Origin: a virus | Reading direction: 5' to 3' (one strand) | Length of the DNA stretch: 25,906 nt | Virus record (IMG/VR): IMGVR_UViG_3300046001_010565 | Span: 1-25,906 of that record | In this document: in pieces, positions 8,089-12,712 of the stretch | How positions within the stretch are numbered: position 1 is the stretch's first letter | How the letters are laid out: every line of letters starts with the position of its first letter | The notes under the pieces: generated by a model | The model's database searches: none | What the model was told of the DNA's origin: nothing | The model's input: only the letters and a program-made list of their open reading frames with translations | Translations under genes and position numbers: made by a program

Positions 8089-8309
8089 ACGGGTTTTATA
8101 TTACCGGCGGCGTTTTGAAAAATTAAAAAGTGAGAAGGCACGTCTTCTTTATTTTTTAACGCTCTTTTCTTTGCTACTTCTACCTCTTTCTTTGTAAGCA
8201 GAAGAGGAATTACGTCTCCGTTTCCTGCCATAAAGCCAACAAAATAATAAAACAAATTTTCACCTTGTTTACGGTTTTTGTTTTTAATTGCTACTTTTTT
8301 CTTGCTCAT
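8085..8309 (-). CDS. Unknown 74-residue basic protein
   Basis: The product begins MSKKKVAIKNKNRKQG, then a FYYFVGFMAG segment, then a charged helix (KKEVEVAKKRALKNKEDVP) and ends NIKPV. The frame continues upstream to 8492, but I choose the ATG at 8309: it has a GTGTAT-type element 15 bases before it and avoids a long overlap with the upstream gene, leaving only 26 bases. No known domain is recognised; the Lys-rich N-terminus could bind nucleic acid or a virion partner. Its stop codon interlocks with the convergent stop of the lipoprotein gene, with no terminator between them. Confidence 0.65.
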   Translation of the reverse strand: MSKKKVAIKNKNRKQGENLFYYFVGFMAGNGDVIPLLLTKKEVEVAKKRALKNKEDVPSHFLIFQNAAGNIKPV

Positions 8310-8922
8310 CTTTATAATATACACTATTGTCCTCAGAAACAGACCATCTTTCACAGGTTTCTGCTGTCCACACCGTTGTTCCAACTTTATAACCACATTC
8401 TGCCGCGGTTGGTTTATTTCCAACAAAAAACGCGTCTTTGAATAAGATTCTATTTGTCGGCAATGCTGCAATCTGCCCATTAGATAAGGCAATTACATGA
8501 GCACATTTATTTTGCTCTGGTATTCCAGTAAAAGAAGTGTCTGGATTTGAATCTTTAAGCCACTCAATAGTAAATAAGTAGGTGCCCGACACCCCGTCCT
8601 TTGTTCTTAAAAAACACTCACACTCATGACTAGCCAAGTAATCCCATTGAATAACCTGAATTTTTTCAGTAAAACAATCCCATAGCTGTAGATGCTCAAG
8701 AGAGTATTCATGATCCGTTTCGGGTTCTTTCCACCACAAAGCGTGTAACGGTAAACCACGCCAGTGAGCGCCAGTTTTTAACATGCCATGAAAGCACAAA
8801 GCTCTTTGATGCTCAGACTTCACCCCAAATAGGTAAGCCTCAGTAAAGCCTTCCACGTTATCTAGATCATATAAAAATTTATTTTTTACTAGCACTTGAG
8901 TGATAGGAATATTAGCGTGCAT
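8284..8922 (-). CDS. Conserved-looking phage protein of unknown function
   Basis: A 212-residue soluble protein with no signal peptide or membrane segment. It has many aromatic residues and several cysteines. Notable segments are VKNKFLYDLDN near the start, then FHGMLKTGAHWRGLPLHALWW, LQLWDCFTEK, GTYLFTIEWL, PEQNKCAHVIALSNGQ and LPTNRILFKDAFF. From memory this layout resembles a roughly 200-residue family of unknown function in large marine phages, often near head genes; that recollection is unverified. It is the first gene of a two-gene minus-strand block inserted in the + strand head region, and its promoter is back to back with that of the protease gene. No function is proposed. Confidence 0.75.
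   Translation of the reverse strand: MHANIPITQVLVKNKFLYDLDNVEGFTEAYLFGVKSEHQRALCFHGMLKTGAHWRGLPLHALWWKEPETDHEYSLEHLQLWDCFTEKIQVIQWDYLASHECECFLRTKDGVSGTYLFTIEWLKDSNPDTSFTGIPEQNKCAHVIALSNGQIAALPTNRILFKDAFFVGNKPTAAECGYKVGTTVWTAETCERWSVSEDNSVYYKDEQEKSSN
8319..8324 (-). promoter_or_regulatory. GTGTAT element before the 74-residue gene
   Basis: On the minus strand AGTGTATATTATAAAG leads directly into the ATG at 8309; GTGTAT starts 15 bases before it. The element lies inside the 3' end of the upstream gene. No Shine-Dalgarno is seen. Confidence 0.45.
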
Positions 8923-9008: not shown

Positions 9009-9017
9009 GTGTATAAT
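9009..9017 (+). promoter_or_regulatory. GTGTATAAT promoter element before the protease gene
   Basis: GTGTATAAT combines the recurring GTGTAT with a perfect TATAAT (9012-9017). The first T of TATAAT is 11 bases before the ATG at 9023. An AAGAGGA at 9001-9007 is too far from the ATG (15 bases) to be a good ribosome-binding site, and it would lie upstream of the predicted transcript start. Confidence 0.6.
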
Positions 9018-9022
9018 AAATT

Positions 9023-10945
9023 ATGGAAATTTTTGAAAACGAAAAAGTGATATCTGAGCTTGTTTCTAATAACAAGATATCATACCAATCACAGATTGTT
9101 ATAGACAAAAGTACCGATGTTAAAAAATTAAACAATATTTGCGCTGGAAACGCTTGTGCAATTGCTTCAATTGCCCCAAATGGATATAAGCCGACAGATG
9201 ACGTTACTGCGATTTCGTCAATTCTTGTGACAGACATTTGGAATGCAAACAATGATGTTTTTACCTCTGAAGAAATTCTTGCCAGGTATGAAACTGCGCA
9301 ATTCAAACCAATTAACTGGATGCATAAAGGCTCCGAAGACAGCGAAAATGAAAACATCGGTGTTATGCTTGACGCTACTTTAGTTTATGGAGATATTCCA
9401 GAGATTAATATTATAAAAGGAGCAGAGGATATTCAATGCTCTGATTTAAAAACCTGCAGTGGAAAAATACACGTAAAACAAGATGGCATTATTTGGTCGG
9501 GGTATTTTCCAACCTATGCTTCTAAAATCGATAAAGGCATTAAAGACGGCTCTCTGTTTGTTTCCATGGAATGCTTTTTTGATGACTTCGGTTACGCTTT
9601 AAGAAAAAACGAAGATTCTAACATTATTTTCCTGGACAGAACAAGCGCCACATCAAAAATGAGCAAGGATTTGACCGCTTTTCAAGGCAGCGGATACACC
9701 AAATATAATGGTGAAAAATACCAAATCGGCAGATGGTTAAAGAAAATCACTTTCTCTGGTCAGGGAGTGGTGTACGAACCAGCCAATAAAACTAAAAACA
9801 AAATCAATAGTATAATTTTTGCAGACGCTGTTAATCCAGTTCCAACCCTGCAGGAACCTGGCACAATACTTAATACAAATGAGATGCCGGAGGGTATGAG
9901 CGATGATGTTTCAAACATTTCTAGAACAGACACTCCTGAAGGTCTACGATACAGACAACAAATGCCGACCACTTACCAGCCACCAAAAGACGGCTTTTTG
10001 TTCTTTACTGCAAAAGAAGCAGAAACTGTTGGAAAAATAAAACTGGGCTGTACTGGATACCATCTCTTTCAAGAAAACAGGCATGGAGACAAACCGCTGT
10101 TATATTCTGCTCTTATAGCAGATCCTTCAGATCTTGAAAAACAAAATCAAATTCCACAATTTAGACCGTGTTCTGACGAGCGAGAGCTGCGATTTGCCAT
10201 GAATGAACTTGGTATTAGTACTGAAACCGATAATAGTTTTTATATAGATAAACCAGAAGGTGATGGTAGCGAGGTGACTACTTTTAATCCGCAAGGCGAA
10301 CCGCCAGCAGAAGGACTGCCGCCAGCTGCCGATAAAACAATGATAACTAATAACAAAGCGACACGTGGAAACTCAAACGCTTTAGACTTTGATAAAAAAT
10401 TAAATAAGGTGTATGTTAAGAAAGAGGAAAACATGTCAGACACAAAAAATCTTACCGGTTTAGAACAAGCACTAACAGAAAATATACAATTAAAAGAGCA
10501 GATTACCTACGCAGAGCAGGCAATTAATTTAGCCGCAAAGCACATTGAAAAAACCAATGCTTCTTTAGTAAAGCTTAAAGAACTGCAAGAGTTTAAAGAT
10601 GAAGCAGAAGCAATTATCAATGAGGCTTACGATAACCAAACTGCGCAAGACAGACTCGCTACCATGAAAGAAATTGTTGGAGATAGTTACAACGAAGAAG
10701 ATCTGGCAGAACTCAAGAGTATGTCAGAAGCTTCTTTCGCGGAGCTAAAGAAGGCAGTTGCTAAAGTAAGCAAGAAGATCGAAAAAACGATCACCGATCA
10801 AGAAATAATTCTTAAAGCAACCGCAGCAATCAAAGAAGCTAGCAAACAAAAACAAGTATCACCAGTTTTCGTGTTGGAGTCAACACCTGGTAAAAAAGAA
10901 GACGCTGCGAAAACACTCATTGATCACGCAATGAGACGCAGATAA
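9023..10945 (+). CDS. Prohead protease with C-terminal scaffold domain
   Basis: A 640-residue protein. Residues 1-270 look like a prohead maturation protease: FKPINWMHKG with candidate catalytic His101, and GSLFVSMECFF at 176-186 with candidate nucleophile Ser181 (or Ser177). The usual protease has a conserved His and Ser in just these contexts. Residues about 290-420 form a cysteine-containing region (GKIKLGCTGYHLF, PQFRPCSDERELRF) that I do not recognise. A Pro/Gly-rich linker follows, and the last 170 residues are highly charged helices of scaffold type. It should act inside the prohead, cleaving scaffold and capsid proteins. The longer-than-usual size comes from the fused central region and scaffold. 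Position before the decoration and capsid genes fits. Confidence 0.8.
   Translation: MEIFENEKVISELVSNNKISYQSQIVIDKSTDVKKLNNICAGNACAIASIAPNGYKPTDDVTAISSILVTDIWNANNDVFTSEEILARYETAQFKPINWMHKGSEDSENENIGVMLDATLVYGDIPEINIIKGAEDIQCSDLKTCSGKIHVKQDGIIWSGYFPTYASKIDKGIKDGSLFVSMECFFDDFGYALRKNEDSNIIFLDRTSATSKMSKDLTAFQGSGYTKYNGEKYQIGRWLKKITFSGQGVVYEPANKTKNKINSIIFADAVNPVPTLQEPGTILNTNEMPEGMSDDVSNISRTDTPEGLRYRQQMPTTYQPPKDGFLFFTAKEAETVGKIKLGCTGYHLFQENRHGDKPLLYSALIADPSDLEKQNQIPQFRPCSDERELRFAMNELGISTETDNSFYIDKPEGDGSEVTTFNPQGEPPAEGLPPAADKTMITNNKATRGNSNALDFDKKLNKVYVKKEENMSDTKNLTGLEQALTENIQLKEQITYAEQAINLAAKHIEKTNASLVKLKELQEFKDEAEAIINEAYDNQTAQDRLATMKEIVGDSYNEEDLAELKSMSEASFAELKKAVAKVSKKIEKTITDQEIILKATAAIKEASKQKQVSPVFVLESTPGKKEDAAKTLIDHAMRRR
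10409..10414 (+). promoter_or_regulatory. Internal GTGTAT element before the scaffold start
   Basis: Within the protease gene, GTGTAT begins 24 bases before the in-frame ATG at 10433. AGAGGA at 10423-10428 lies between them at ribosome-binding distance. The spacing matches the intergenic copies before 390, 12732 and 19548. Confidence 0.5.
10433..10945 (+). CDS. Nested in-frame scaffold protein, internal start
   Basis: The ATG at 10433 is in frame with the protease and would give a separate 170-residue product beginning MSDTKNLTGLEQALTEN. It is almost wholly charged and helical with heptad-like spacing (QLKEQITYAEQAINLAAKHI, then KELQEFKDEAEAIINEAYD) and ends basic (HAMRRR), as scaffold proteins that bind capsid subunits do. 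AAAGAGGAAAAC directly before the ATG and a GTGTAT element upstream support independent expression. Lambda uses the same plan, with scaffold Nu3 nested in frame in protease gene C. The stretch codes as part of the fusion in any case; the separate product is inference. Confidence 0.65.
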   Translation: MSDTKNLTGLEQALTENIQLKEQITYAEQAINLAAKHIEKTNASLVKLKELQEFKDEAEAIINEAYDNQTAQDRLATMKEIVGDSYNEEDLAELKSMSEASFAELKKAVAKVSKKIEKTITDQEIILKATAAIKEASKQKQVSPVFVLESTPGKKEDAAKTLIDHAMRRR

Positions 10946-10965: not shown

Positions 10966-10971
10966 GTGTAT
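10966..10971 (+). promoter_or_regulatory. GTGTAT element before the decoration gene
   Basis: GTGTAT starts 27 bases before the ATG at 10993 in the 47-base gap after the protease gene. AAGGA at 10980-10984 is the ribosome-binding site, eight bases before the ATG. Confidence 0.5.
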
Positions 10972-10992: not shown

Positions 10993-11556
10993 ATGGCATT
11001 AAAACCTGATAGAAACGAACTCGACGTAGACATCTCTTATTTCTGGGCAACCGGCATTGGTTATGGCAGTGAAAGAGGAGGCTGGGTTTCCGCAACTGGA
11101 TCCACCGCCGCCTCTGGTGCTGGCATGGATCAAGCAGTTAACCAAGTTTGGTACAGCTTAAACGCAACCGGACTTCGTCCGCTCGGCCTTCTGCTGAACG
11201 ACGTTGTTAACGTAGACTTAACCAGACAGATTCTTAATCCGTACAAGAGCGAAGTGCAGGTTGGTGACAAGATCACCGTGCTCAAGAAGGGTTATGTCTT
11301 AACTAATAGAATCGTAACCACAATTGGACCAAATAGTGTTGCTATTACTCCTGGCGCTCCAGCTTATACAGGCCCAAGCGGCTTTATCAGCTCTGTTGCC
11401 AGCGGATCATTGGGTCTTGGTAACTCAACTACAGCCAACGGCACCGGTAAAGATTTTAATGCTCACATTAACAGCCCGTCTGGCTCACACGTTATTGGTA
11501 AGTTCCTGAGTGCGGCTGACGAAGACGGTTACGCGAAGGTCTATATAGACTTATAA
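10993..11556 (+). CDS. Capsid decoration (head-stabilising) protein
   Basis: A 187-residue protein rich in Gly, Ser, Thr and Val, with no membrane segment, fitting a beta-rich virion protein. The central GDKITVLKKGYVLTNRI and the ending IGKFLSAADEDGYAKVYIDL resemble head decoration proteins: a K-x-G-x-V-L-T strand and a terminal 'IGKsLs..D.DGYAkV.idl', as I recall the family. Position immediately before the major capsid gene is where such proteins are commonly encoded. It would bind the outside of the expanded capsid. Codons look more C/G-ending than in the flanking genes, suggesting high expression. Confidence 0.65.
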   Translation: MALKPDRNELDVDISYFWATGIGYGSERGGWVSATGSTAASGAGMDQAVNQVWYSLNATGLRPLGLLLNDVVNVDLTRQILNPYKSEVQVGDKITVLKKGYVLTNRIVTTIGPNSVAITPGAPAYTGPSGFISSVASGSLGLGNSTTANGTGKDFNAHINSPSGSHVIGKFLSAADEDGYAKVYIDL

Positions 11557-11584: not shown

Positions 11585-12649
11585 ATGTCAAATGAAATTA
11601 AAGATAGTGTAGAAACAAGTGAGTTAACTGACGCAGCAAAGCGCCTTTTGTCCGACGCTGGCAGCAATGATAAAAACACCTCAATGAGAGCACAGGCTCA
11701 AATTGCTAAGGGTATTGCTTCAGCCTTGAATGAGTTCAATCACACTCAGGCTGTTGAAGGACCAATCCGAGAAGGCATTCTGAAGGGAGACATTGTGTCT
11801 GACATCTTTGTAACAGAAGACTTCAGCTACACGAATGATCTTAGAATTCCTCTGGATCTGCTTGCTCCTGGAACCGAGAAGGATCACGTTGCTTACGTTA
11901 TCCCAGATCACGGCAAGATTCCGATGCGTAGAGTTGAGTCTGATTACATTCAGTTGAATACCTATATGATTGGTAGCTCAATTGACTGCACTCGCAAGTT
12001 CTTGAAGAACGCAAGATTTGATGTTCTTCGCCGAATGATTGAAGTGCTCAACATGTCCTTCGTGAAGAAGAACAACGATGACGGCTGGCAGACTCTGCTT
12101 GCCGCAGCATACGGTCGTGGTATCGCAGCATTTGATGCCGATGCACCAGCCGGTTCGTTTACGCCAAAGCTTGTTAGTCTCATGAAGACTGTTGTTCGAC
12201 GTAACGGTGGCGGTAACTCCACCAGCACGAATCGTCGTAAGCTTACTGACTTGTACTTGTCTCCAGAGGCATTCGAGGACATGAGCGCATGGGGTCTCAA
12301 CTTAGTGTCTGACGACATCCGTTCCTCTATCCAGAGAAGTGATGAAGGTGCTGTTCGCGGCATGTATGGTGTAAACTTCCATGATGTTGACGAGCTGGGC
12401 GTTGGTCAAGAGTACCAGCTTTACTACACCAGTGTGTTAAGTGGATCGCTTGCTTCTTCTGATGAAGAGTTGGCAATCGGTTTAGATCTGACTCAGCCAG
12501 ACAAGTCTTTCATTCACCCTGTCTCACAGAAGATTGAAGTGACTGAAGATGACAATCTTCACAGACACGGTCTTGTTGGATTCTACGGTTCGATGGAAGG
12601 TGGATGGGCTTGCTTAGACGTTCGTTACATCCTTGCTGGTTCATTCTGA
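11585..12649 (+). CDS. Major capsid protein
   Basis: A 354-residue protein of the size expected for an HK97-fold capsid subunit. The N-terminal 80 residues are charged and helical; then FVTEDFSYTNDLRIPLDLLAPG, a segment IPDHGKIPMRRVESDYIQLNTYM typical of the P-domain strands, a long helix (RFDVLRRMIEVLNMSFVKK), and LTDLYLSPEAFEDMSAWGLN with the usual 'lyvsp.a..d' strand-helix. It ends with LHRHGLVGFYGSMEGGWACLDVRYILAG, matching the common C-terminal pattern of capsid proteins. It follows the protease, scaffold and decoration genes and is itself followed by a strong terminator. Codon use is visibly richer in C and G at third positions. A TATAAT at 11552-11557 may be a promoter. Confidence 0.85.
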   Translation: MSNEIKDSVETSELTDAAKRLLSDAGSNDKNTSMRAQAQIAKGIASALNEFNHTQAVEGPIREGILKGDIVSDIFVTEDFSYTNDLRIPLDLLAPGTEKDHVAYVIPDHGKIPMRRVESDYIQLNTYMIGSSIDCTRKFLKNARFDVLRRMIEVLNMSFVKKNNDDGWQTLLAAAYGRGIAAFDADAPAGSFTPKLVSLMKTVVRRNGGGNSTSTNRRKLTDLYLSPEAFEDMSAWGLNLVSDDIRSSIQRSDEGAVRGMYGVNFHDVDELGVGQEYQLYYTSVLSGSLASSDEELAIGLDLTQPDKSFIHPVSQKIEVTEDDNLHRHGLVGFYGSMEGGWACLDVRYILAGSF

Positions 12650-12670
12650 TTCTAAGTTAATTAAATAAGT

Positions 12671-12705
12671 CCCGCCTCCAGTTTATTGGGGGCGGGATTT
12701 TTATT
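12671..12705 (+). terminator. Rho-independent terminator after the capsid gene
   Basis: CCCGCCTCC pairs with GGGGGCGGG (nine pairs with one T-G wobble) around the loop AGTTTATT at 12680-12687. A T-rich tract follows at 12698-12705. It begins 21 bases after the capsid stop and should separate the highly expressed capsid transcript from the connector genes. Confidence 0.9.
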
Positions 12706-12706
12706 A

Positions 12707-12712
12707 GTGTAT
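12707..12712 (+). promoter_or_regulatory. GTGTAT element directly after the terminator
   Basis: TTAGTGTATTT begins right at the end of the terminator T tract; GTGTAT starts 25 bases before the ATG at 12732. AGAGGA at 12719-12724 is the ribosome-binding site. It probably restarts transcription for the connector genes. Confidence 0.55.

Follow-up and report, generated by a model that had tools for sequence, protein, structure and literature searches.

The window analyzed here is the whole 25,906-nucleotide stretch of IMG/VR virus record IMGVR_UViG_3300046001_010565. Its head gene block contains a putative protease-scaffold fusion open reading frame (ORF) of 640 amino acids at 9023 to 10945 (+), open over its entire length, in which a protease-like domain (residues 54 to 270; 9182 to 9832, +) is joined to a helical tail of 170 amino acids. 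The two parts are separated by a variable linker (residues 271 to 462; 9833 to 10408, +) that carries indels and is modeled with a pLDDT under 50. The tail is also a nested ORF in the same frame (10433 to 10945, +; 170 amino acids, MSDTKN...), which starts at codon 471 of the fusion, shares its 3' end, and is predicted to form coiled-coil helices. Before this internal ATG lie a Shine-Dalgarno (SD) core, GAGG (10424 to 10427, +), and, 24 nt before the start, the word GTGTAT (10409 to 10414, +), which encodes Val463-Tyr464 and was proposed to be a late-promoter element. The ORF, the internal ATG, the SD, and GTGTAT are all located where the initial annotation had placed them. Two more copies of the word stand nearby, one at 9009 to 9014 (+), 14 nt before the full-length protease ATG 9023, and one at 10966 to 10971 (+), 27 nt from ATG 10993 of the next gene. 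That gene (10993 to 11556, +) encodes a small capsid-associated, decoration-like protein with a weak match to the Pfam XM1 gp53 minor capsid family (E=2.8e-4, below the cut-off). The major capsid protein gene that comes after it (11585 to 12649, +) has no GTGTAT of its own; its matches to the PHROG major head protein (E=0.003) and to Pfam Phage_capsid_4 (E=0.003) are both weak. The head block is closed by a terminator-like hairpin (12667 to 12700, +; a 15-pair stem plus a T run) directly before another GTGTAT (12707 to 12712).

An AlphaFold2 model of the fusion, built from 19 sequences, had a mean pLDDT of 54, with values of about 70 to 80 in much of residues 60 to 250 and 480 to 580. In this modest-confidence model, the fold that the protease domain best matches is that of assemblin: the best 20 matches from VIA-align were all herpesvirus assemblin proteases (best Z of 8.8; rmsd of 2.9 over 119 residues), which emerged only after VIA re-alignment, Foldseek alone having found no significant match. 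T4 gp21 and the lambda-type (S49, ClpP-like) proteases were absent among the structural matches, an absence that is no evidence against them. The candidate catalytic residues are Ser181, which lies within an invariant VSMEC stretch, and His101, by its position the likely catalytic partner of Ser181. Searches of the fusion against PHROGs and Pfam gave no assignment, with scattered weak matches at most, and neither the fusion and its distant counterparts described below nor the capsid protein had a phage relative that we could find in GenBank. In the tail, helices are predicted at residues 476 to 552 and 569 to 609, and the fusion profile had weak, mostly coiled-coil matches among PDB sequences. 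The initial annotation had described the C-terminal 170 codons as a coiled-coil scaffold; the predicted long helices agree with the coiled-coil part of that description, and the scaffold role is inferred because the tail has a fitting shape and charge and its gene immediately precedes those of the capsid. The fusion was retained in every relative whose contig holds the whole ORF. Close relatives also share an extra conserved block between protease and scaffold, DGFLFFTAKEAE...GCTGYHLYQ...ADP.DLEKQ (window positions 9833 to 10408), which is absent from L005, L030, L031, and L032.

In the windows that precede 373 genes of 21 related loci, GTGTAT ranked above every other hexamer, with 73 occurrences where 1.8 were expected; it again came first among upstream hexamers in the distant relatives (61 seen, 3.1 expected). 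Position frequencies over 70 unique sites reveal a single block, preceded by A/T and followed by an A-rich stretch, without a -35 block, as expected of a late promoter read by a phage sigma factor. In the distant relatives, a T5 run lies within 25 nt upstream of 43 of 66 gene-preceding sites (65%; background, 3.7%), which is the layout of promoters placed after terminators. These features point to GTGTAT as a putative promoter element. It is very improbable that the word acts instead as an RNA element, such as a processing or translation signal. Such a signal would fit the position of GTGTAT close upstream of starts and its being read on the coding strand, but the distance between word and start varies widely, from 14 to about 60 nt, GTGTAT often comes directly after terminators, and the phages encode sigma factors. 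Among close relatives, the distances to the start fall into two groups, 12 to 15 and 21 to 33 nt, and the 24-nt spacing of the internal site, which the initial annotation had called standard, agrees with the sites of other genes, mostly at 23 to 33 nt. One feature of the internal site in the window speaks against it: the base before GTGTAT is G, as at just 3% of family sites. A sigma-70-like match at 10389 to 10417 (9 of 12) was rejected, since the region has 11 such matches where chance alone would give 8.3. At the portal ORF, the first listed start, GTG 5662, coincides with a GTGTAT element, and translation probably begins at ATG 5684 or 5695 instead.

A candidate reader of GTGTAT is encoded at 437 to 1036 (+; GTG start, 199 amino acids). 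Its product weakly matches a PHROG sigma factor (E=3.6e-4), 10 of 12 homologues have a weak Pfam Sigma70_r2 match, and the structural matches of its model are nearly all sigma factors, including the sigma-E domain 8b3z (Z of 8.8; rmsd of 2.4 over 73) and T4 gp55 (7d7c; Z of 8.0). Of 21 related records, 15 contain a homologue, and sigma-like genes are present in distant relatives too. The two largest close-clade records searched, G001 and G003 (the records of L008 and L012), each have two sigma-like genes, one above the Pfam cut-off, which counts against a firm assignment; the 437 to 1036 product is one candidate reader of the word. T4 late promoters of the gp55 type are likewise single-block elements read by a small phage sigma factor. 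The resemblance extends to the phage-encoded sigma-like protein, which matches gp55 among other sigmas; the word differs, GTGTAT here versus TATAAATA in T4.

In the close-relative set (n=16, window included), Val-Tyr is encoded by exactly GTGTAT in all 16 sequences. A start codon with an SD-like core follows 24 or 27 nt downstream in every one of them; it is TTG in L014 and L017 and ATG in the others. From codon use, GTGTAT would be expected at 5.6% of Val-Tyr pairs, and elsewhere in these proteins Val-Tyr is written with many different codons. In a 15-sequence set in which synonymous sites are near saturation, all but 8 of the 157 conserved degenerate residues vary in their codon; Val463 and Tyr464 are among the 8 that do not, within a linker whose length and sequence vary elsewhere. 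On the other side of the ledger, the internal site reads GGGTAT in L005 and L023, where the same variant also precedes other genes.

A profile scan of viral contigs identified at least 563 relatives, of which the best 80 were kept. The distant set comprises 54 distinct ORFs at ~30% identity; genome contigs added just seven distant relatives, in MAG contigs of mixed taxa. A linker GTGTAT followed 35 to 59 nt downstream by an in-frame SD-ATG was found in 35 of the 54 ORFs, compared with 4 of 108 control segments. All 35 words are in frame 1, mostly within Gly-Val-Phe/Ser, versus frame 0 (Val-Tyr) in the close clade, and on a tree of the protease domain the two frames fall on opposite sides of the longest split. 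The Val codon at the distant site is GTA in 43 of 44 cases, whereas the mean share of the top codon elsewhere is 0.64. The internal spacing tracks that of each clade's gene starts: 24 to 27 nt against mostly 23 to 33 nt in the close clade, and 35 to 59 nt against a median of 43 nt in the distant one. Counts across relatives are not independent events, given near-copies and shared ancestry; the difference in frame and the synonymous codons are evidence that goes beyond such counts. Codon conservation, the second reading frame, and clade-specific spacing thus point to selection on GTGTAT as a DNA word. The ORF, the internal start with its SD, and the motif, as well as their conservation, can be read directly from the sequences; ATG and motif are both kept in the 16 close relatives (apart from the two TTG starts) and in most distant ones, the opposite of the loss of both that the initial annotation had named as refuting its idea.

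Selection could in principle act on the residues, for example on a protease cleavage or linker site, with the DNA word incidental. Conservation of Val-Tyr (or Gly-Val) within an otherwise variable linker would agree with such a site, which we nevertheless consider hardly plausible, because the same word underlies different residues in the two clades and its synonymous codons are near-invariant.

The distant set also holds evidence for nesting at the level of translation. The word-plus-start pair is missing from the linker in 19 of the 54 ORFs, and a well-supported clade of eight (L082, L091, L105, L106, L107, L116, L121, and L124) has an internal SD-ATG, mostly with an AAGGAG-type SD, without GTGTAT. 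Both observations count against an internal promoter as a general feature; the second means that a nested start can exist without the word, and the clade looks like a natural contrast, with translation-only nesting. A rival reading is that ribosomes start at the internal ATG on the protease mRNA, as in lambda C/Nu3, with GTGTAT inactive as a promoter and the internal SD sufficient by itself. This is unlikely, since it leaves unexplained the exact conservation of the GTGTAT codons, the persistence of the word where the reading frame differs, and an internal spacing that matches each clade's promoters. Most relatives have a GAGG/GGAG core at the internal start, but the SD of the close clade is only 3 to 4 nt long, and 4 nt is also reached by 11 of 207 other in-frame ATGs, a point against a dedicated start there. 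The suggestion in the initial annotation that the internal start seems to have its own promoter element is supported by the conservation of GTGTAT at the DNA level.

The genes around the nested start bear on what such a promoter would serve. Upstream, 12 of 16 close relatives have a GTGTAT at a distance of exactly 14 nt from the protease ATG and no SD in between. If transcription starts ~7 nt past GTGTAT, as it would for a -10 element, the full-length protease message of the window clade may have almost no leader; the scaffold message, unlike that of the protease, would begin with its SD. Downstream, few distant relatives have a GTGTAT before the decoration gene (2/49) and none before the capsid gene (0/46), so that the nearest upstream copy is usually the one inside the protease gene. 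The internal element may therefore drive scaffold, decoration, and capsid genes jointly in these phages. The same absence would fit a promoter meant for the decoration and capsid genes, with the nested scaffold start a by-product or unused. We find this improbable: the window clade keeps its internal GTGTAT although the next gene has its own (10966), and the SD and start codon are kept at a narrow distance from the motif, even when the start is TTG.

The reading that we favor, to which we assign a probability of roughly 0.7, is that one gene gives rise to two proteins, the fusion from the upstream GTGTAT and the scaffold alone from the internal GTGTAT. During the late phase of infection, a phage sigma factor would direct RNA polymerase to initiate at GTGTAT elements. 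Initiation upstream of the gene would lead to the full protease-scaffold fusion; initiation at the internal copy would produce a shorter message with ATG 10433 as its first start codon and the SD just inside a short leader. From this short message the 170-amino-acid scaffold would be made alone, and read-through would add the decoration and capsid proteins. The scaffold could then be made in excess of the protease and would co-assemble with the fusion via the common C terminus, and the protease would remove it during head maturation.

Of the known systems, herpesvirus UL26/UL26.5 comes closest, ahead of lambda C/Nu3. In herpes simplex virus 1, the UL26 and UL26.5 transcripts are 3' coterminal, and the UL26.5 promoter lies within UL26 (PMC2949831). 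The phage gene resembles this pair in two respects: a protease domain, assemblin-type by model, is fused to a putative C-terminal scaffold, and an in-frame, 3'-coterminal ORF for that scaffold is nested in the protease gene. A promoter-like word conserved as DNA lies within the protease coding region and may play the part of the UL26.5 promoter. Unlike in herpesviruses, the gene sits in a phage genome whose gene order is that of phages, and the putative promoter element is of the bacterial sigma type. In lambda, the C-terminal part of C, an S49-type protease, is also made as the separate scaffold Nu3 from an internal in-frame start, and Nu3 is made from the common late transcript. The C-Nu3 interaction is among those listed for phage lambda (PMC3224144). 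An internal in-frame start with an SD inside the protease gene is the sole feature in common with our phage, in which, unlike in lambda, a conserved promoter-like word precedes that start and the protease model is assemblin-like. In T4, gp21 and gp22 are encoded by separate genes. The T4 prohead contains scaffold gp22 in large excess over protease gp21, about 580 to 55 copies (PMC9958956). Both phages would have protease and scaffold inside the prohead; unlike T4, ours has a fusion with a nested start. We found no published phage internal promoter within a protease-scaffold gene in the searchable literature, whose coverage is incomplete. A dedicated internal promoter element, as predicted here for a phage protease-scaffold gene, would be what is new relative to the lambda C/Nu3 precedent, and the prediction is well supported by sequence conservation.

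Thus, in an uncultivated tailed-phage family, the head-maturation protease gene appears to hold a promoter and a second start for its scaffold half. A growing virus head needs protease and scaffold in very different amounts, and, if the favored reading is true, phages, like herpesviruses, set these amounts by transcription, via a promoter within the coding sequence. The shared assemblin-like fold and nested layout would then bear on the extent of the assembly machinery common to phages and herpesviruses. Our broadest proposal is more tentative, and we rate it just short of even: that a large uncultivated family embeds a phage-specific late promoter in the head-protease coding sequence, from which the scaffold gene, in many members along with the decoration and capsid genes, is transcribed separately from the protease, and that the protease of the window clade is translated from a nearly leaderless message. 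The gene would in that case be a phage counterpart of UL26/UL26.5, convergent or from a common tailed-virus ancestor. If GTGTAT is indeed a promoter, its retention in two different frames within one gene family would be a clear case of its kind.

Between portal and protease, an opposite-strand gene (8284 to 8922, -) matches PHROG 3704 (ferredoxin, auxiliary gene; E=1.8e-48), and a gene of the GDP-mannose 4,6-dehydratase or epimerase family at 1859 to 2863 adjoins the terminase genes.
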